From contig NZ_KQ949034.1 of NCBI RefSeq assembly GCF_001514285.1, positions 232,540 through 296,539 on the forward strand: a stretch of DNA of 64,000 nucleotides, given 5' to 3'. The position numbers and the translations under genes are program-made. The notes below the pieces were generated by a model. That model had not been told where the DNA came from. It was given only the letters and a program-made list of their open reading frames with translations, and searched no databases. Positions 45,951 to 57,904 of this stretch are shown here, in pieces; within the stretch, counting starts at the first letter, position 1; every line of letters starts with the position of its first letter. The DNA comes from Streptomyces sp. DSM 15324. GTDB lineage: Bacteria; Actinomycetota; Actinomycetes; Streptomycetales; Streptomycetaceae.

Positions 45951-47597
45951 TCAGTTCACGTTGACCGCGCTCCAGGCCGCCGCCACCGTGGTGAACTCCG
46001 TGCCGCCCGCGCCGTAGAGGTCCCGGGCCGCGTTCAGGGTGGCGGTCCTCGCTCCCGCGTAGTTCGTGGAGGACGTCATGTAGACGGTCAGGGCGCGGTA
46101 CCAGATCGCGCCGAGCTTGGCGCGGCCGATGCCGGTGACGGTCGAACCGCCGTACGTCGGGGAGTCGTAGGTGACCCCGTTGATCGTCTTGGCGCCGCTG
46201 CCCTCGGCGAGGAGATAGGCGAAGTGGTTGGCGACCCCGGACGAGAAGTGGACGCTGAGGTTGGCGACCGAACTGTTCCAGTAGTCCGCCGAGCCGCCGT
46301 CCCTGCTCGGCCTGTCCATGTAGCGCAGGGCGTCCCGCCCGAGGCCGGGGCGGACGACCTTCTCGCCGATCAGGTAGTCGCCGGTGTCCTGCTCGTTCCC
46401 CGCGTAGAACTCGACCAGCGTTCCGAAGATGTCGGACGTGGCCTCGTTCAGGCCGCCGGACTCGCCCGAGTAGAGCAGTCCGGCGGTTCTCGAGGTCACG
46501 CCGTGGGACATCTCGTGGGCGGCCACGTCCAGCCCCACCATCGGTCCGAAATGGGTGCCGTTGCCGTCGCCGTAGGTCATGCAGAAGCAGTCGTCGTTCC
46601 AGAAGGCGTTGGAGTAGCCGGTGCCGTAGTGGACGCGGTTGTAGGAGCCCTTGCCGTCGTTGCCGATGCCGTTGCGGCCGTGGACGTTCTTGTAGTAGTC
46701 CCAGGTCACGTCGCTGCCGTACTGGGCGTCGACAGCGGCTGTCGAGCGGTCGGCGGTCGTGCCCGAGCCCCAGTGGTTGTCGTCGTCCGTGAAGAGGGTG
46801 ACGGGGGCGCGGCTGCTGCAGCCGCTGCGGGTGCACACGTCGGTCCTGTCGGCCGCGTCACCGGTGTAGGTGCCACCCCGCGTGGGGTCCTTGAGCTGGT
46901 ACGTCGACCCCGAGAGGGTCGTCTCCAGCGCGAGCGTGCCGCTGTAGAGGGACTGGCCGTCGCCGGTGGCCGTCTCGATGCCGTCCCAGGCGTCGATCCG
47001 GACACCGGTGCGGGCGTCGGTCAGCACCGCCCGGGCGACCGGGTTGCCGAGCGAGTCCAGCCCGGCGGCATGGGTGCGCCAGGCCAGTCTCGGGGCACCG
47101 TGCAGGGTGTCGACGACGAGCCGGGGCTGGGCCTTGACCTGCTGAAGCGTGTCGCCCGGGTGGGCCGCGCGCAGGGCGTGCACGGCGAGGTCGGCCGCCC
47201 TGGGGGCCGGCACCTTCGGGGTGGTGCTCGGCAGCGAGATCTCCGCCCTCGTCGCCCGGTCGGCGCCGCGGTATGTGCCGTCGGGGGCCAGGTGGACGAC
47301 GAAGTCACCGCCGAGGACGGGGAGTTGGTGGTAGGTACGGTCGTAGCGAACGTGCTGGGCGCCGTCCTTGTCCACGATCACGTCCCGCACGGAGGCCTCC
47401 TGCGCGGAGGTGAGGCCCAGGGCCGCGGCCCGGTCGGCGAGGACCGCCGCCGCGTTGTCGAGGGCGGTGGCGCGGGTCGGCCTGTCGGCCGCGTCGGCGG
47501 CCGGGGAGAGTAAGGCGGCCACGAGCGTGGCGGTGGTGGCGGCGATGCCGGCGGTGGCGAGACGGGAACCTCGGACATGCTGCCGTATCCGACTCAT
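45951..47597 (-). CDS. Secreted M4-family (thermolysin-like) metalloprotease
   Basis: A 548-residue precursor. ATG 47597 chosen as the first codon directly before a signal peptide (SRIRQHVRGSRLATAGIAAT, then hydrophobic core). An FTP/PepSY-type propeptide follows, then the catalytic domain with zinc site DVAAHEMSHGVTS and second Glu in GGLNEATSDIFG. The catalytic His is in SSGVANHFAYLL. It secretes as a zymogen that matures outside the cell. It converges with the serine protease gene. Confidence 0.95.
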   Translation of the reverse strand: MSRIRQHVRGSRLATAGIAATTATLVAALLSPAADAADRPTRATALDNAAAVLADRAAALGLTSAQEASVRDVIVDKDGAQHVRYDRTYHQLPVLGGDFVVHLAPDGTYRGADRATRAEISLPSTTPKVPAPRAADLAVHALRAAHPGDTLQQVKAQPRLVVDTLHGAPRLAWRTHAAGLDSLGNPVARAVLTDARTGVRIDAWDGIETATGDGQSLYSGTLALETTLSGSTYQLKDPTRGGTYTGDAADRTDVCTRSGCSSRAPVTLFTDDDNHWGSGTTADRSTAAVDAQYGSDVTWDYYKNVHGRNGIGNDGKGSYNRVHYGTGYSNAFWNDDCFCMTYGDGNGTHFGPMVGLDVAAHEMSHGVTSRTAGLLYSGESGGLNEATSDIFGTLVEFYAGNEQDTGDYLIGEKVVRPGLGRDALRYMDRPSRDGGSADYWNSSVANLSVHFSSGVANHFAYLLAEGSGAKTINGVTYDSPTYGGSTVTGIGRAKLGAIWYRALTVYMTSSTNYAGARTATLNAARDLYGAGGTEFTTVAAAWSAVNVN

Positions 47598-47792
47598 CAG
47601 TGTCTTCTGTCTCCTGGAGAAGGCGCCGTGGGGGCGCGTGGGGGGGTGGGCGCCCGGGGGATGGCACAGGAGGGGCACCGGGGAGCCGCGCCGGGGGCGG
47701 CGCTGATCTCGTCCTGGCATTCAAGAGGGCGCAGTCCTGTCATGTCCAGGTCTACCGCGCCGAAGTGTTCCTCGAAGGCGTGCGCGGGCTGC

Positions 47793-51637: not shown

Positions 51638-51976
51638 TCAGGCACTGCGGGGGGTGGCTGAGATGGTGCGCGGGGCGGCCTGGGGAGCCGGCTCCGACAA
51701 CTGGTGGTCGCGCTGATCCAGGTTCACGAAGATCATTCCGTACCGGATCGCGCACCGGACGGGCTGCGGCGCCCCCCGGGGCCGCCGCAGGCACCGATAG
51801 GCCCGGACGTCGTCCTCCTCGTCCCGGGTGACGACCACCGGTTCTCCGAACACGGTCACCATCAACGAGTCACCACTGTGGGGGATGGCGGTGACCAGGT
51901 CGATGAAGTGCCAGCCGGAGCGGTAGGCGGTGGCCATCTCGCGGCGGAAGGAGCGGTCGTCGGGTGGTGTACTCAC
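51638..51976 (-). CDS. Rieske-oxygenase-like protein lacking cluster ligands
   Basis: A 112-residue protein from GTG 51976 with GGAG five bases upstream. The sequence WHFIDLVTAIPHSGDSLM, VFGEPVVVTRDEEDDVRAYR and then YGMIFVNLDQRDHQ resembles the start and the later strands of Rieske dioxygenase alpha-subunit domains. Where a CxH pair is expected it reads CLRRPRGA, and the second CxxH segment is absent, so it cannot bind a normal 2Fe-2S cluster. It is translationally coupled to the peptide gene upstream (TGA then CGTG). Family assignment is tentative. Confidence 0.6.
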   Translation of the reverse strand: MSTPPDDRSFRREMATAYRSGWHFIDLVTAIPHSGDSLMVTVFGEPVVVTRDEEDDVRAYRCLRRPRGAPQPVRCAIRYGMIFVNLDQRDHQLSEPAPQAAPRTISATPRSA

Positions 51977-51977
51977 G

Positions 51978-52175
51978 TCAGCTCCACGCGGTGTCTGCCG
52001 GGTAGACAGAAGCAACCTCGTCGCCACCGGCCGCGGCCGACCATGCCGTGTCGCGCTGCGGCTCGCTGGTCCCGCCGGACAGGCCGGTCAGCGCTCCGAA
52101 GGCCAGAACGGCGGAGAAGGCGGCGACAAGTACTGAGCGAAGCATTTTGTTCCGCATATTCGGCTTCGTCCTCAC
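51978..52175 (-). CDS. Small secreted peptide precursor with DTAWS repeats
   Basis: A 65-residue protein from GTG 52175 (GGGGA seven bases upstream). A basic start (MRTKPNMRNKMLR) and a hydrophobic stretch (SVLVAAFSAVLAFGALTGL) form a signal peptide. The mature part of about 30 residues contains two copies of DTAWS, the last ending the protein. Its stop is one base from the GTG of the Rieske-like gene, so the two are coupled. The gene is divergent from a LuxR-type regulator gene. No known family; it could be a signalling or antibacterial peptide. Confidence 0.6.
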   Translation of the reverse strand: MRTKPNMRNKMLRSVLVAAFSAVLAFGALTGLSGGTSEPQRDTAWSAAAGGDEVASVYPADTAWS

Positions 52176-52260
52176 TTGAAGTTCCCCTTTCCCCCGACGA
52201 GTAAGACGATGGCTCATTCGGGCACGTCATGGCCACACGATCGGTGCATCATGTTCCTGC

Positions 52261-53271
52261 ATGTTCAGGACCCTGGGGGGTGGAGATTTGGCAACGAATC
52301 GAATAAATGGGACACATCCCCACGCCATGACCGACCTGTGCGAGGAAGGAAGCCGCCTATACGCGGACGCACTTCGCACCGGACGCATCGCCCGCGTGGA
52401 CGTGGAGCCCGCCCCTTGCCTGATGGAGCTCGCTCTGTTGTACCCCGACGCCGATGACGCGAACTGGCTGCGTCCGGTTCCCCCTTCGATCGCCCTGGCC
52501 CAGCGGCTCAATCCCCTCGAACGCGAGATCACCGAGCGCCGACGGCTCTCCGTCGAGCTGGCCGAGGCGTTCGAACCGTTCATGGCGCTCAGCGCCCCGC
52601 CGACGACCTCCACCCCCTCGATCACCCTGCTCGAAGGCCTCGACCACATCAACGGGGCGCTGGACCTCGCCGCCTCGCAGTGCCGGAACGAGGTGCTGTC
52701 GATCCAGCCGAGCCACCGCCACCCGGAACGCAGGCTCATCGAGGCGCTGGAACGCGACAAGCCGCTGATCGAACGCGGCGTGCGGATCCGGACCCTCTAC
52801 CAGCACACGGCCCGCTACAGCCCCGAACGGCTCGCTTGGGTGGACCAGTTCGCCGACGGCAAGGCGGAGTACCGCACCATCGACGAACTGGTCGAGCGGC
52901 TGATCATCTGTGACGAGACAGTGGCGTTCATCCCGATCCGCGACGACCGCCAGGTCGCCCTGGAGATCCGCCACGCCGGACTGGTCCGCTACCTCATCAA
53001 GGTGTTCGAGTTCATGTGGAACCGGGCCGTCCCGCTGAGCGCCGGAGCGCCCTACGAGACCGCCCCCGACGGTCTCACCGACATCCAGCACTCCATCGCC
53101 AAACTCCTCGTCGAGGGCCACGTCGACGAGGCCATCGCCCGCCGGCTCGGGATGAACGTCCGCACCTGCCGCGCCCACATCGCCAAGCTCGCCACCGCCC
53201 TGGGCAGCGGCAGCCGGGCCCAGCTCGGCTACCTCATCGCGCAGTCGGGGATCCTGGACCGGGACGAGTGA
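52261..53271 (+). CDS. LuxR-type regulator with N-terminal sensor domain, paralogue 1
   Basis: Up to 336 residues from ATG 52261; a later ATG (52327, MTDLCEEGSRLYADALRTGR) is also possible. An N-terminal conserved segment has CEEGSRLYADALRTG and EPAPCLMELALLYPDADDANW. A middle domain reads LLEGLDHINGALDLAASQC and VLSIQPSHRHPERRLIEALE, like TrmB/PLD-type sensor parts. The C-terminal HTH is LTDIQHSIAKLLVEGHVDEAIARR then NVRTCRAHIAKLA. It lies divergent from the DTAWS peptide operon and is the first of four paralogues. Confidence 0.8.
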   Translation: MFRTLGGGDLATNRINGTHPHAMTDLCEEGSRLYADALRTGRIARVDVEPAPCLMELALLYPDADDANWLRPVPPSIALAQRLNPLEREITERRRLSVELAEAFEPFMALSAPPTTSTPSITLLEGLDHINGALDLAASQCRNEVLSIQPSHRHPERRLIEALERDKPLIERGVRIRTLYQHTARYSPERLAWVDQFADGKAEYRTIDELVERLIICDETVAFIPIRDDRQVALEIRHAGLVRYLIKVFEFMWNRAVPLSAGAPYETAPDGLTDIQHSIAKLLVEGHVDEAIARRLGMNVRTCRAHIAKLATALGSGSRAQLGYLIAQSGILDRDE

Positions 53272-53298: not shown

Positions 53299-54121
53299 AT
53301 GAGGAGCGAGGTGCACCACCCCACCGAAGAGGTGTGCGAGCCGGGACCGGGGCTCTGCGCCCACGCCCTGCGCGAGGGCCGGGTGCCCCGGGCCGAGGCC
53401 GGGCACACCCCCTGTCTGCTCGTCGCCCGGCTGCTGCGGCCGGACCGCGACGACGCCGGCCTGCGGAACCTGGCCACCCCGATGTACCCCGAGGCCGTGC
53501 GCCAGCAGGCCCAGAACGGTGTCACCCCCCGTCGGCGGGCCATCGCCGCCCTCCTCGTCGAGGGCCACACGGACACCGTCGTCGCCGACCGCCTCGGCAT
53601 GAACGTCCGCACCGCCCGCCGTCGCCCTGCACCGCGCGCTGCGGCCCCTCGCGGACCGCGTGGTGGACGAACGGCGGCACACGGCACGGCTGGTGGAGAC
53701 GTTCGAACCGCTGCCCCGGCTCGCCCCGGGCCCCGGGGCCGGACCGGAGGCGTCCGCCATCGGCGTCCTGAGCGGCCATGGCCGCATCAACGACGCCATC
53801 ACCTCTGGCGGGCATCCCGCAGCACTCCGGTACTTCGCCTCGGCCTTCGCACGTCTCCGGAACCTGGCCACCCCGATGTACCCCGAGGCCGTGCGGCAGC
53901 CGGCCCACGACAGGGTCACCCCCCGCCGGCGGGCCATCGCCGCCCTCCTCGTCGAGGGCCACACGGACACCGTCATCGCCGACCGCCTCGGCATGAACGT
54001 CCGCACCGCACGCGTCCACATCGCCGGACCCGCCGCCCGCCTCGGCAGCGAGAGCCGCGCCCAGCTCGGCCACCTCATCGCACGCTCAGGAATCCTCGAC
54101 CAGGAAAGAGACCCGACTTGA
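53299..54121 (+). pseudogene. LuxR-type regulator, rearranged and frameshifted (paralogue 2)
   Basis: Pieces of the paralogue sequence occur in the wrong order. An N-terminal piece (HALREGRVPRAEAGHTPCLL) is followed by an HTH segment (ATPMYPEAVRQQAQNGVTPRR, to about 53622). Then comes a frame shift to the second frame, a middle piece (HTARLVETFEPLPRL), loss of the sensor core, and a second HTH that runs to the stop. The two HTH segments (53459-53622 and 53857-54013) are about 165-bp imperfect direct repeats. No functional product is expected. Confidence 0.75.
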
Positions 54122-54200
54122 CATCCTCCTCGCCCTAAAGGACGGGGATTCCTGGCTCACGTTGGCTGGGGACCAGCGGTCCGCCAGCTCTTACACGATC
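54119..54200 (-). ncRNA. Predicted omega RNA (TnpB guide RNA) 3' region
   Basis: In IS605 systems the guide RNA overlaps the end of tnpB and the right end. The AATCCCCGTCCTTTAGGGCG sequence at the element end, read on the minus strand, fits this terminal structure. The guide would start just outside, in the end of the regulator pseudogene. Only position is used here; length is approximate. Confidence 0.4.
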
Positions 54201-55382
54201 AGCACCAGCCGGGTTGAGACCAGCCCGGACCAGCATCACGCGGGCGGAGTTCTTGTCCCGGGGGGACACGGCTCCGCACGCGGTGCACAGGTAGGTACGT
54301 TCCGAAAGAGGTAGTGCGTGCTTGGTTCTCGCTCCGCACTGCGCGCAGTCCATGGTGGTGTGCGCGGGATGCACGAGACGGATGTCCCGCCCATGCTTGC
54401 GGCCCATCTCGATCAGGGCCGTCCTGGTGGCGCCGATCGCCGCGTCGGCGGCCTTGCGGGCCATGGTGGACTTCGCGAGGAACTTCGGGCGAAAGTCCTC
54501 CACCGCGATGGCGTCGTGGTCGCGCACGACGGTCTTGGCCCACTTGCGGGCGGTGTCCTGCCGCTGCCGGGCGACCTTCTTGTGCAGCTTCGCGGTCTGC
54601 GCCTGGGCTTGCCGATAGCCGTTGGACGCGGCCTGTCCGGGCGATGGCTTCCGGCGGGCCATCATCCGCTGGTACCGGGCGAGTTTCTGCGCGGCGGTCT
54701 TCCCGTGTTGCGGGTGGGGGAGGTCGTGGGCGTCGGATGTGGTGGTGGCGGTTTCCTTGACGCCCCAGTCCACGCCGAGCACCCGCCCGGTGGCGGGGAG
54801 CGGCTGTACCTGGGTGGCGACGACGAACGAGGCGTACCAGTGGCCGAGGCTGTCGCGGTACACGCGCACGCTCGACGGCGTGGACGGCAGGTCGCGGGAC
54901 CACACCACGGTCAGCGCGATCCCGCCCGCCAGGTGCAGGCGGCCGTCCTTCAGCCGGAAGCCGCGGGTGGTGTAGTTCAGCGTGGGCAGCGCGTCCCGCT
55001 TGCGCTTGGTGCGGGGCATCCCGGCGCGCTGCCGCACCGGCTGCTTCGCCTTGATGTCCTTGAGCGCCTTGGCGCGGGACTTGGCGAAGTCGCGGATGGT
55101 CTGCTGCTGCGGCACCGACGCGCCCTCCCGCAGCCAGGCCATCGCGCCCCGCGCATCGGTCAGCAGCTTGTCCAGCTGCGCCGGACCGCACGTCACTTTG
55201 TCGTCCGGGTTGGCGCGGTTCGCGGCGTGGACCTTGCGGGACATGGCCACGCACTCGTTCCACACCCACCGGCAGCGCGCCCACTCGGCCATGAGGCCCG
55301 TGCGGGCGGCCGACGACACGCGAAGCCGGTAGGTGTACCGGGCGTGCCCGGCATCCCCCACAACTTCCTGTCGTGTCGTCAT
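54135..55382 (-). CDS. tnpB: TnpB (IS605 OrfB) RNA-guided nuclease
   Basis: A 415-residue protein. The N-terminal half has RYTYRLRVSSAARTGLMAEW and CRWVWNECVAMSRKV. The RuvC-like domain has Asp in GRVLGVDWGVKET, Glu in AIAVEDFRPKFL and Asp in SPRDKNSARVML, with a zinc ribbon (MDCAQCGARTK, then YLCTACGA) before the last. TnpB proteins cut DNA guided by a RNA encoded at the 3' end of the element. That RNA would overlap the end of tnpB and run leftward past 54119. All catalytic residues are present. Confidence 0.94.
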   Translation of the reverse strand: MTTRQEVVGDAGHARYTYRLRVSSAARTGLMAEWARCRWVWNECVAMSRKVHAANRANPDDKVTCGPAQLDKLLTDARGAMAWLREGASVPQQQTIRDFAKSRAKALKDIKAKQPVRQRAGMPRTKRKRDALPTLNYTTRGFRLKDGRLHLAGGIALTVVWSRDLPSTPSSVRVYRDSLGHWYASFVVATQVQPLPATGRVLGVDWGVKETATTTSDAHDLPHPQHGKTAAQKLARYQRMMARRKPSPGQAASNGYRQAQAQTAKLHKKVARQRQDTARKWAKTVVRDHDAIAVEDFRPKFLAKSTMARKAADAAIGATRTALIEMGRKHGRDIRLVHPAHTTMDCAQCGARTKHALPLSERTYLCTACGAVSPRDKNSARVMLVRAGLNPAGADRVRAGGPLVPSQREPGIPVL

Positions 55383-55659: not shown

Positions 55660-56667
55660 GTGAACGCGCCGCCGCACCCCCCTCACGGCGTGGCCGAACT
55701 CTGTGCCCAGGGCAGCCGTCTCTACGAACTGGCCCTGCGCGAGGGCCATCTGACCGCCGGTGACGCCGAGTCGGCCCCCTGTCTGCTCGACCTCGGCCTC
55801 CTGCACCCGGCCGTCGACGACCTGGGCCGGCTGGAGCCCGTCGCCCCCGCCGTCGCCCTGCACCGCCGGCTGCACGCCTCCGCGGCCCGCATCGCCGAGG
55901 AACGGCGCCACGAGGAGCGGCTGGTCACGCTCTTCGAACCCCTCATGCGGCTCACCGGCAGCCACACCGCCCCCGCGGAGTCCGCCGCCCTGCGCATCCT
56001 CAGCGGCAACGAGCAGATCAACGAGGCCATCACCGAGGCCATGGACGAGATGCGCGAGGAGCTGCTCTGCATCCAGCCGCGGACCGGCCTCGACACCGAA
56101 CGGGCCGCCGCCGCCATGGAGATCGCCCGTCGGCGCGACCAGGCGGTGCTCGACCGCGGCTGCCGCATCCGCACCCTCTACCAGCACACCACCCGGCACA
56201 TCCACGTCATCATCGGCCACTACGAGCTGCTGAGCGGCGACGCCGAGGCGCGCGGCCTCGACGAGGTCACCGATCGCCTGATCGTCGTCGACCGCACGGT
56301 GGCCTTCCTCCCCGCCAACGAGGACGGCACCCTCGCCCTGGAGATCCGGCAGCCTGCCCTGATCTCCTTCCTGGCCACCGCGTTCGACCGGCTGTGGCGG
56401 CTGGCCACCCCGATGTACCCCCAGGCGGTCCAGCGCCCCTCGCTCAACGGCGTGACCCCCCGGCAGCGGGCCATCGCCGCCCTCCTCGTCGAGGGCCACA
56501 CCGACTCCGTGATCGCGGCCCGCCTCGGCATGAACATCCGTACGGCCCGTGTCCACATCGCCAAACTCGCCGCCGGCCTCGGCAGCGAGAGCCGCGCCCA
56601 GCTCGGCTACCTCATCGGCCGGTCGGGGATCCTCGACCAGGAAGCGCATCCGGAAGCACCTCGGTAA
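55660..56667 (+). CDS. LuxR-type regulator, paralogue 3
   Basis: A 335-residue protein from GTG 55660 (AAGGAA upstream). N-terminus CAQGSRLYELALREGHL and ESAPCLLDLGLLHPAVDDLG, middle LRILSGNEQINEAITEAMDE and CIQPRTGLDTERAAAAM, then RTLYQHTTRHIHVIIGHYEL. The C-terminal HTH has RQRAIAALLVEGHTDSVIAA and NIRTARVHIAKLAAGLGS. Its 3' end overlaps the next convergent gene by 56 bases. Paralogous to the genes at 52261 and 56612. Confidence 0.85.
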   Translation: MNAPPHPPHGVAELCAQGSRLYELALREGHLTAGDAESAPCLLDLGLLHPAVDDLGRLEPVAPAVALHRRLHASAARIAEERRHEERLVTLFEPLMRLTGSHTAPAESAALRILSGNEQINEAITEAMDEMREELLCIQPRTGLDTERAAAAMEIARRRDQAVLDRGCRIRTLYQHTTRHIHVIIGHYELLSGDAEARGLDEVTDRLIVVDRTVAFLPANEDGTLALEIRQPALISFLATAFDRLWRLATPMYPQAVQRPSLNGVTPRQRAIAALLVEGHTDSVIAARLGMNIRTARVHIAKLAAGLGSESRAQLGYLIGRSGILDQEAHPEAPR

Positions 56668-57904
56668 CCCCGGCACCGGGCCCCGGCCCGGACACCTGGG
56701 CCGCCCCGAAGACCTGGGCCGGCCCGGACACCTGCCCCGACCCGGAAACCTCGGCCGACCCGGACACCTGCCCCGACCCGGAAACCTCGGCCGACCCTGA
56801 CACCTGGGCCGCCCCCGAGACGGGCCCCGGCCCGGACACCTGCCCCGGCACCACGCCCGCCGCCGCACCGCGCACCGCGCCCGCCGCCGGAGCGACGGGC
56901 CCGCCCGGCTCCACCGGACCGTCCAGTCCGACCTGCGCGATCCGCACCCCCAACTGGGTCCGGCTCGCCGCGCCCAGGGTCTCCGAGAGCCGGGCGATGT
57001 GGGCGCGGCAGGTACGGACGCTGATCCCGAGGCGCTCGGCGATCACCGCGTCCTGGTGCCCCTCCGCCAGCAGCGCGGCGATGGACTGCTCGCGGTGCGA
57101 GACGCCCTCCACGCGGGTCTCCGGGAGCTGCGCGCCCAGGGGGACCGCCAGCCGCCACAGCCGCTCGAAGACCGTCACCAGATAGGCCACCAGGGCCGGG
57201 TGGCGCAGCTCCAGCGCCATCGTGCGGTCGGCGTTCGCCGGGATGAAGGCCACCTTGCGGTCGAAGAGGATGAGCCGGTCGACGACCTCGTCCAGGGTGC
57301 GGGCCTCCACCGCGTCGCCCATCAACTCCAGGTAGTTCAGCAGGCCCTGGCCGTGCCGGGCCACGTGGTTGTACAGATCGCGCATCCGCACGCCCCGGCC
57401 GCGCAGCTCCAGCGCCCGGTGCAGGCCCTCCGACAGTTCGTGCTCGCGCCGGATGCCGCCCGGCTGCACCGTCAGCACCTCGGTCGTGCACGCCTCGGTC
57501 GCCTGGTCCAGCGCCGCCTGGATGCGCGAGGGGCCGTCCAGGACCCGGATCGCCGCGCCCTCCTGGGCCCGCGCGCCCGGCGTGGGGCCGCCGAGACCGG
57601 CGTACCACTCGAAGGCGGCGACGGCCGAACCCATGCGCCGCTCACTGGCGCTCACCTCGTCGTGCAGCCCGCGCAGCAGCCGGGTCATGACCTCCTGCGG
57701 GGAGGTCGGCACCAGCCACTCCATGTCGTCGGGATCGGGGTGCAGCAGGGCCAGCTCCAGCAGACAGGGGACCTGCTCGGCGTCGCAGCGCGGCACACGT
57801 CCGCGCCGTACGGACCGGGAATACACGCGATCCCCGGCCTCGCACAGTCGGTCAGCACCGTGAGGATGCTCCTCCGTCCCGTGCCCGGCCATCGCCCATC
57901 CCAC
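56612..57904 (-). CDS. LuxR-type regulator with repetitive C-terminal tail, paralogue 4
   Basis: A 430-residue protein; ATG at 57904 or 57892. The domain order is as in the other paralogues: CEAGDRVYSRSVRRGRVPR, then LLELALLHPDPDDMEWL, VLTVQPGGIRREHELSE, DLYNHVARHGQ and HTH REQSIAALLAEGHQDAVIAE with RTCRAHIARLS. A tail of about 90 residues made of VSG, SGS and AEVSG repeats follows, encoded by two exact 36-base copies (56725-56760 and 56761-56796). It converges with paralogue 3, overlapping by 56 bases. Confidence 0.82.
   Translation of the reverse strand: MGWAMAGHGTEEHPHGADRLCEAGDRVYSRSVRRGRVPRCDAEQVPCLLELALLHPDPDDMEWLVPTSPQEVMTRLLRGLHDEVSASERRMGSAVAAFEWYAGLGGPTPGARAQEGAAIRVLDGPSRIQAALDQATEACTTEVLTVQPGGIRREHELSEGLHRALELRGRGVRMRDLYNHVARHGQGLLNYLELMGDAVEARTLDEVVDRLILFDRKVAFIPANADRTMALELRHPALVAYLVTVFERLWRLAVPLGAQLPETRVEGVSHREQSIAALLAEGHQDAVIAERLGISVRTCRAHIARLSETLGAASRTQLGVRIAQVGLDGPVEPGGPVAPAAGAVRGAAAGVVPGQVSGPGPVSGAAQVSGSAEVSGSGQVSGSAEVSGSGQVSGPAQVFGAAQVSGPGPGAGVTEVLPDALPGRGSPTGR
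56725..56796. repeat. Two 36-bp tandem copies, coding
   Basis: Exact copies at 56725-56760 and 56761-56796, with a partial third. They encode the Val-Ser-Gly repeat in the tail of paralogue 4. Confidence 0.9.

Follow-up and report, generated by a model that had tools for sequence, protein, structure and literature searches.

Gene content and distribution of the locus

The window analysed here, i.e., the whole stretch of 64,000 nucleotides of DNA, derives from a Streptomyces genome of 9.4 Mb. In it, a small operon on the minus strand, comprising a peptide precursor gene and a gene for a Rieske-like protein, diverges from a facing regulator gene on the plus strand:

51638-51976, minus strand: Rieske-like gene, 112 aa, truncated and ligand-less, ending in ATPRSA
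51978-52175, minus strand: precursor gene with GTG start, 65 aa, leader resembling a signal peptide, DTAWS in two copies
51981-51995, minus strand: DTAWS core copy 2, precursor residues 61-65, C-terminal
52038-52052, minus strand: DTAWS core copy 1, precursor residues 42-46
52245-52283, no strand assigned: near-invariant intergenic box, probable operator
52327-53271, plus strand: regulator, probable peptide receptor, 314 aa
Regulator residues about 99-233: TrmB/PLD-like domain, holding the putative specificity residues 123, 132, 140 and 144
Regulator residues about 250-307: C-terminal LuxR-type HTH
About 53299-54121 (also given as 53299-54138), plus strand: broken, frameshifted regulator paralogue
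54135-55382: TnpB-type IS605 OrfB gene, within the regulator array after the frameshifted paralogue
55660-56667, plus strand: regulator paralogue without its own peptide gene, with a variable pocket unmatched to the host peptide
56612-57904, minus strand: conserved convergent regulator paralogue with the invariant pocket V123, G140, A144

Re-reading of the CDS at 51978-52175 (minus strand) gave the same 65-residue precursor of secreted type as the original prediction, with two copies of DTAWS, one of them C-terminal. The TGA-C-GTG coupling that it had proposed is likewise seen in the sequence: a single C (a 1-nt gap) separates the TGA of the precursor from the GTG of the Rieske-like CDS, and among relatives this distance ranges from -4 to +8 nt. 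The divergent gene at 52327-53271 (plus strand) indeed encodes a LuxR-type regulator, with a C-terminal LuxR-type HTH that gives a weak match to PF00196 (GerE), and the three paralogues expected downstream are all present, the first being frameshifted and broken. In this strain the C-terminal tail of the convergent paralogue (56612-56900, minus strand) consists of VSGSGQVSGSAE-type repetitive sequence.

The absence of cluster ligands that had been noted for the Rieske-like protein holds as well. The protein has a weak Pfam Rieske match (E 0.023) and its fold remnant matches oxygenase alpha subunits. When aligned with PDB structures of ring-hydroxylating oxygenase alpha subunits, Arg64 takes the place of the first Cys and Pro66 that of the first His, the segment with the second ligand pair is missing, and the CxH and CxxH ligands that a Rieske [2Fe-2S] cluster requires are not provided. 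C62 and C75, which we considered as retained ligands, were discarded because in this alignment the first pair falls on Arg64 and Pro66. The proteins end in an invariant ATPRSA, behind a linker that differs in length as well as sequence; a docking tail would be expected to look like this.

The Rieske-like gene is carried by 244 of 296 Streptomyces genomes and was not found outside Streptomyces in the family and phylum samples. Among the Streptomyces of a class-wide sample, the 20 that carry this gene all have the orthologous regulator, and the two lacking it have neither. About 190 loci were read for gene arrangement; every scored locus has the divergent regulator and in every locus read the precursor lies between the regulator and the Rieske-like gene, those of two loci (L175 and L203) having been missed by the script and found by direct translation of the region. 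The leader and position of the precursor were the same in the loci inspected, and genes for YbjN and ClpB adjoin the locus in 73 of 73 long loci. Lack of conservation of the peptide beside regulators of this kind had been named as a ground for abandoning the original prediction, but peptide and regulator occur together at every inspected locus. Since the three-gene arrangement is common to all of these, the 39-nt box is near-invariant and control DNA contains 0.01 such peptides per 4 kb, this arrangement is not due to chance.

The tetrapeptide word and the facing regulator

The precursors of the Streptomyces loci share a conserved, hydrophobic leader, beyond which they are variable save for 1-18 copies of a tetrapeptide word, [D/E/N]-x-x-W. 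We found 41 types of this word (e.g., DSTW, DSSW, DSGW, EPSW, DVGW, DTGW, DTAW), and a single one is used throughout in 127 of the 136 multi-copy precursors. Among the copies within one precursor, amino-acid identity is 99-100% inside the word, 67% at the residue after Trp and about 26-45% in the spacers, whereas between different precursors core positions 2 and 3 are only 22-31% identical. At these same two positions the codons of 31-44% of copy pairs differ synonymously. It follows that selection on the protein sequence, and not recent duplication, maintains the identity of the word; the synonymous differences also count as evidence, drawn from codons, that the frame is translated. The last word stops one residue short of the stop codon in 48 of 171 distinct precursors, as DTAWS does here, which suggests that the mature signal is a pentapeptide and that DTAW is probably read as DTAWS. 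On inspection, no textbook cleavage site was seen in the conserved Streptomyces leader.

A Foldseek search with the AlphaFold model of the regulator retrieved TrmBL2 (E 8e-14), with PLD nucleases next, the best PDB fold matches being 5box, 3qph and 2f5t (TrmB/TrmBL2). The sole HTH found is the GerE-like one at the C-terminus, and there is no N-terminal winged helix of TrmB type. Pfam scans of 63 members of the regulator family detected GerE, no autoinducer-binding family and no TPR family. Site 123 is located in a strand (122-127), residues 130 and 132 in the loop that follows, and sites 140 and 144, separated by one turn, on the next helix (133-149). It is plausible from the model that sites 123, 132, 140 and 144 form a single pocket. 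Phage copies of the regulator were not found.

Changes of the word and of all variable sites of the regulator and the Rieske-like protein were mapped on a tree and changes on the same branch were scored, significance being assessed by 4000 permutations with correction for all variable sites of both proteins; a second tree was built without regulator residues 100-199. Site 123 and core position 2 share 17 of 21 changes, against an expectation of 2.1, and 20 of 22 on the second tree. Both this pair and site 140 with core position 3 reach a family-wise p<1/4000. Site 132 also follows core position 3 (p 0.03 with the first tree; score unreached in 4000 permutations with the second). At core position 2, Ser occurs with Met123 (79/79), Thr with Val123 (42/42), Pro with Leu123 (17/17) and Ile with Val123 (11/11), while Phe pairs with Ala123, so that a bigger peptide side chain tends to face a smaller pocket residue. 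All 121 regulators that face a core-2 Ser or Thr carry Asp144, and none of the 46 facing other residues does, which would suit hydrogen bonding to the hydroxyl group, although few evolutionary changes lie behind this table and the tree test for site 144 is not significant family-wise. Arg132 never occurs where core position 3 is Lys, Arg or His. In all, only a few of the variable regulator sites covary with the core, and a receptor-ligand pairing of regulator and peptide is strongly supported by this pattern.

The Rieske-like protein behaves differently. Among all of its variable sites, none covaries significantly with the word in the tree-based test, and we have rejected it as a receptor or specificity factor for want of any such site. 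Since it does not track the word, we would guess it to be an accessory protein that touches a constant partner, be it the regulator, the precursor leader or a protease. The central role implied for it at the outset is not upheld, the protein being confined to Streptomyces and not covarying with the peptide.

The several regulator paralogues per genome serve as internal controls. The convergent paralogue was present in 73 of 73 loci with a median identity of 86%, and V123, G140 and A144 were found in 69 of 69 loci, irrespective of the peptide. It is perhaps the receptor for a constant, genus-wide ligand. No peptide gene of its own was seen near it. In the tandem paralogues the pocket varies without clear relation to the word of the host. 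The idea that the adjacent paralogues are further receptors of the same word was dropped, their pockets being either invariant or unmatched.

Related pairs and the proposed signalling circuit

Related pairs occur in other actinomycete genera, at other Streptomyces loci and on plasmids. The original prediction had suggested searching for small genes ending in D-T-[AVT]-W beside this regulator family. For the broader pattern [D/E/N]-x-x-W, 17 of 50 distant regulators have a tiny peptide of secreted type within 500 nt (control 0.01 per 4 kb), while about two thirds are without a recognisable peptide neighbour. In these pairs, which were not used to derive the rule, Met123 occurs in three of three DSSW pairs and in none of 13 Thr-type pairs. 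The one distant DSLW pair (L288) has Val at this site, so that among pairs this distant the Ser-Met rule is not without exception; with this pair included, the association gives a Fisher p of about 0.006. One further actinomycete family has an AxA-like signal-peptidase site directly before the word (e.g., SPAHA-DTSWG). The regulators on plasmids match at 32-39% identity, with peptides ending in ...CDDTSWGG (Kitasatospora sp. NBC_00039), ...GDSAWG (Streptomyces sp. NBC_00467) and ...CDTSWGG (Streptomyces sp. NBC_00048), and those of Streptomyces sp. NBC_00523 and W1SF4 carry the words DDQW and DDRW. No Rieske-like gene is annotated in the plasmid pair stretches, and no extra gene is common to the distant pairs. 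In W1SF4 (L298:2941-3933) and NBC_00523 (L299:2792-3715) the pair adjoins an AfsA-related gene and a 4'-phosphopantetheinyl transferase gene. As AfsA-related proteins are of the gamma-butyrolactone synthase type, these two plasmids may combine signalling by peptides with signalling by butyrolactones.

The 39-nt box between the divergent genes reads CCACCCCCCAGGGTCCTGAACATGCAGGAACATGATGCA on the minus strand, with the palindrome TCCTGAACATGCAGGA. It is near-invariant in most loci and lies 55 nt from the regulator start, a diverged form being found mainly in the EPxW/DPxW clade. Its conservation and position make it a likely operator, which would imply autoregulation. In searches of the own genome with a 17-mer and a 14-mer, no site other than that of the locus stood out clearly from the background; we therefore see no wider regulon and have set aside the notion of a multi-gene one. 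A thermolysin-type M4 metallopeptidase is encoded near the locus (45951-47720, minus strand). It was considered as a linked processing protease and rejected, being absent from the other 73 long loci; neither a protease nor a permease shows linkage to the locus.

Sequence comparison shows that the arrangement is genus-wide, that the tetrapeptide is under selection and that two core positions covary with the regulator, position 2 with sites 123 and 144 and position 3 with sites 140 and 132. We consider it probable (roughly 80%) that the locus encodes a peptide-signalling pair, in which an exported, species-specific word is recognised by a cytosolic TrmB/PLD-like LuxR-HTH receptor that exerts control at the 39-nt box. 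From known systems we infer, by analogy, export, trimming, re-import and a release or gain of DNA binding. The small gene would give rise to an exported precursor with one to many copies of the species-specific [D/E/N]-x-x-W, from which proteolysis would free a short peptide. An oligopeptide permease would take this peptide back into the cell, where it would be bound by the regulator in its TrmB/PLD-like domain. The regulator would then release or gain DNA binding and, with its LuxR-type HTH on the 39-nt box, control the peptide/Rieske-like operon. Binding at the box, the sign and the output of the regulation and an accessory function for the Rieske-like protein are parts that we likewise infer. 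The original prediction had offered a peptide signal with a dedicated receiver as one of two readings, and it is this one that gains strong support from a word that covaries residue by residue with the facing regulator only and by the independent peptide-regulator pairs elsewhere.

The site of binding deserves consideration, since covariation is silent on where it takes place. Prior to export, or in place of it, the precursor could be bound by the regulator inside the very cell that makes it and report export capacity or envelope or protein stress, with no signal passing between cells; word diversity could then merely prevent cross-talk between the paralogous pairs of one genome. The several regulator paralogues per genome, the linkage to clpB in 73 of 73 loci and the lack of a linked permease or protease would fit such a role. 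However, multi-copy precursors with free spacers have the design of released peptides, AxA-like sites immediately precede DxxW in distant relatives, and the peptide-less tandem regulators vary freely in their pocket, as would listeners to foreign words. We therefore regard binding within the same cell as unlikely.

The other reading offered originally, a modified peptide natural product (RiPP), would have enzymes mature the precursor into a bioactive compound and the regulator act as that of the cluster. Some RiPP families have repeated cores in variable copy number, and the translational coupling to a redox-protein-like partner points in the same direction, but this partner is without cluster ligands, the distant pairs share no extra gene and a plain cluster regulator is not expected to match its peptide at the residue level. 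No RiPP-type maturation enzyme is linked to the locus, the conserved neighbours being YbjN, ClpB, the Rieske-like protein and the regulators only. Lacking a conserved modifying enzyme, this reading finds no support and seems to us very improbable. It is even harder to credit that the covariation reflects inherited linkage without contact, i.e., that whole cassettes swapped between species carry correlated residues along. Adjacent genes could travel together in this way, yet the few covarying sites change on the same branches and make chemical sense, whereas other regulator sites, the Rieske-like protein and the adjacent paralogue do not covary, and the Ser-Met rule is true in three of four distant Ser pairs.

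Comparison with known signalling systems

Signalling in Streptomyces is known mainly via small molecules such as gamma-butyrolactones. In the literature searched, outside of which most subscription papers and preprints fall, we found no description of a genus-wide, species-specific peptide channel in Streptomyces, in line with the original statement that neither of its two readings had been described; novelty is, therefore, provisional. It seems likely to us that actinomycetes at large use peptide languages of this type, with exported [D/E/N]-x-x-W words, TrmB/PLD-type LuxR-HTH receptors, a simple residue code, words particular to the species in most Streptomyces, and peptide-less receptors that are possibly eavesdropping on other words. 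If true, this would give inexpensive access to communication, to development and perhaps also to the making of antibiotics in Streptomyces, readily testable with one genome-predicted synthetic pentapeptide per species, and the receptor-peptide pairs would constitute a natural data set of single-residue specificity changes.

For S. coelicolor, a 655-Da extracellular peptide taken up by the BldK oligopeptide permease is, as far as the account in PMC9640686 goes, a presumed signal for aerial growth, and strains may use different peptides. The signal proposed here would similarly be a small extracellular peptide with permease uptake, and a link between the 655-Da peptide and the Streptomyces locus is possible. 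As clpB of S. coelicolor is SCO3661 (PMC2687793), gene order suggests SCO3662-3664 as the peptide-regulator locus and, by gene order only, SCO3664 as the regulator. An insertion mutant of SCO3664 (“regulator”) showed actinorhodin raised more than 50-fold (PMC6585502).

With the LuxR receptors of AHLs the Streptomyces regulator shares the C-terminal LuxR/GerE HTH and a quorum-type logic, but it gives no hit to an autoinducer-binding domain, its proposed ligand is a peptide and no LuxI-type synthase was seen at the locus. The PLD-like effector domain is a likeness to the archaeal regulators TrmB and TrmBL2. TrmB, however, senses sugars and has its winged helix at the N-terminus, whereas the Streptomyces regulator carries a C-terminal HTH and is matched to a peptide ligand. 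Identical copies of a word between variable spacers are reminiscent of the alpha-factor precursors of yeast, a likeness of convergent design only, since the present system is bacterial, with a tetra- or pentapeptide and a putative intracellular receptor.

A close parallel in logic is provided by the RRNPP systems of the Bacillota (Rgg/SHP, PlcR/PapR, ComR/XIP, NprR, PrgX, AimR), in which an exported precursor is encoded beside a cytosolic DNA-binding receptor and short linear peptides form strain- or species-specific pairs. In the inspected Streptomyces loci and the distant pairs a precursor with what looks like a secretion-type leader adjoins the regulator gene, and the pairs are species-specific, with export and a linear ligand presumed for the Streptomyces locus. 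RRNPP receptors combine an N-terminal HTH with TPR repeats, whereas the Streptomyces regulator has a TrmB/PLD-like domain followed by a C-terminal LuxR HTH and no TPR. The host phylum, Actinomycetota, and the multi-copy tetrapeptide word with its invariant Trp are further differences. The Streptomyces locus would thus work like the RRNPP systems but, judging from the modelled fold of its regulator, is not a member of them.
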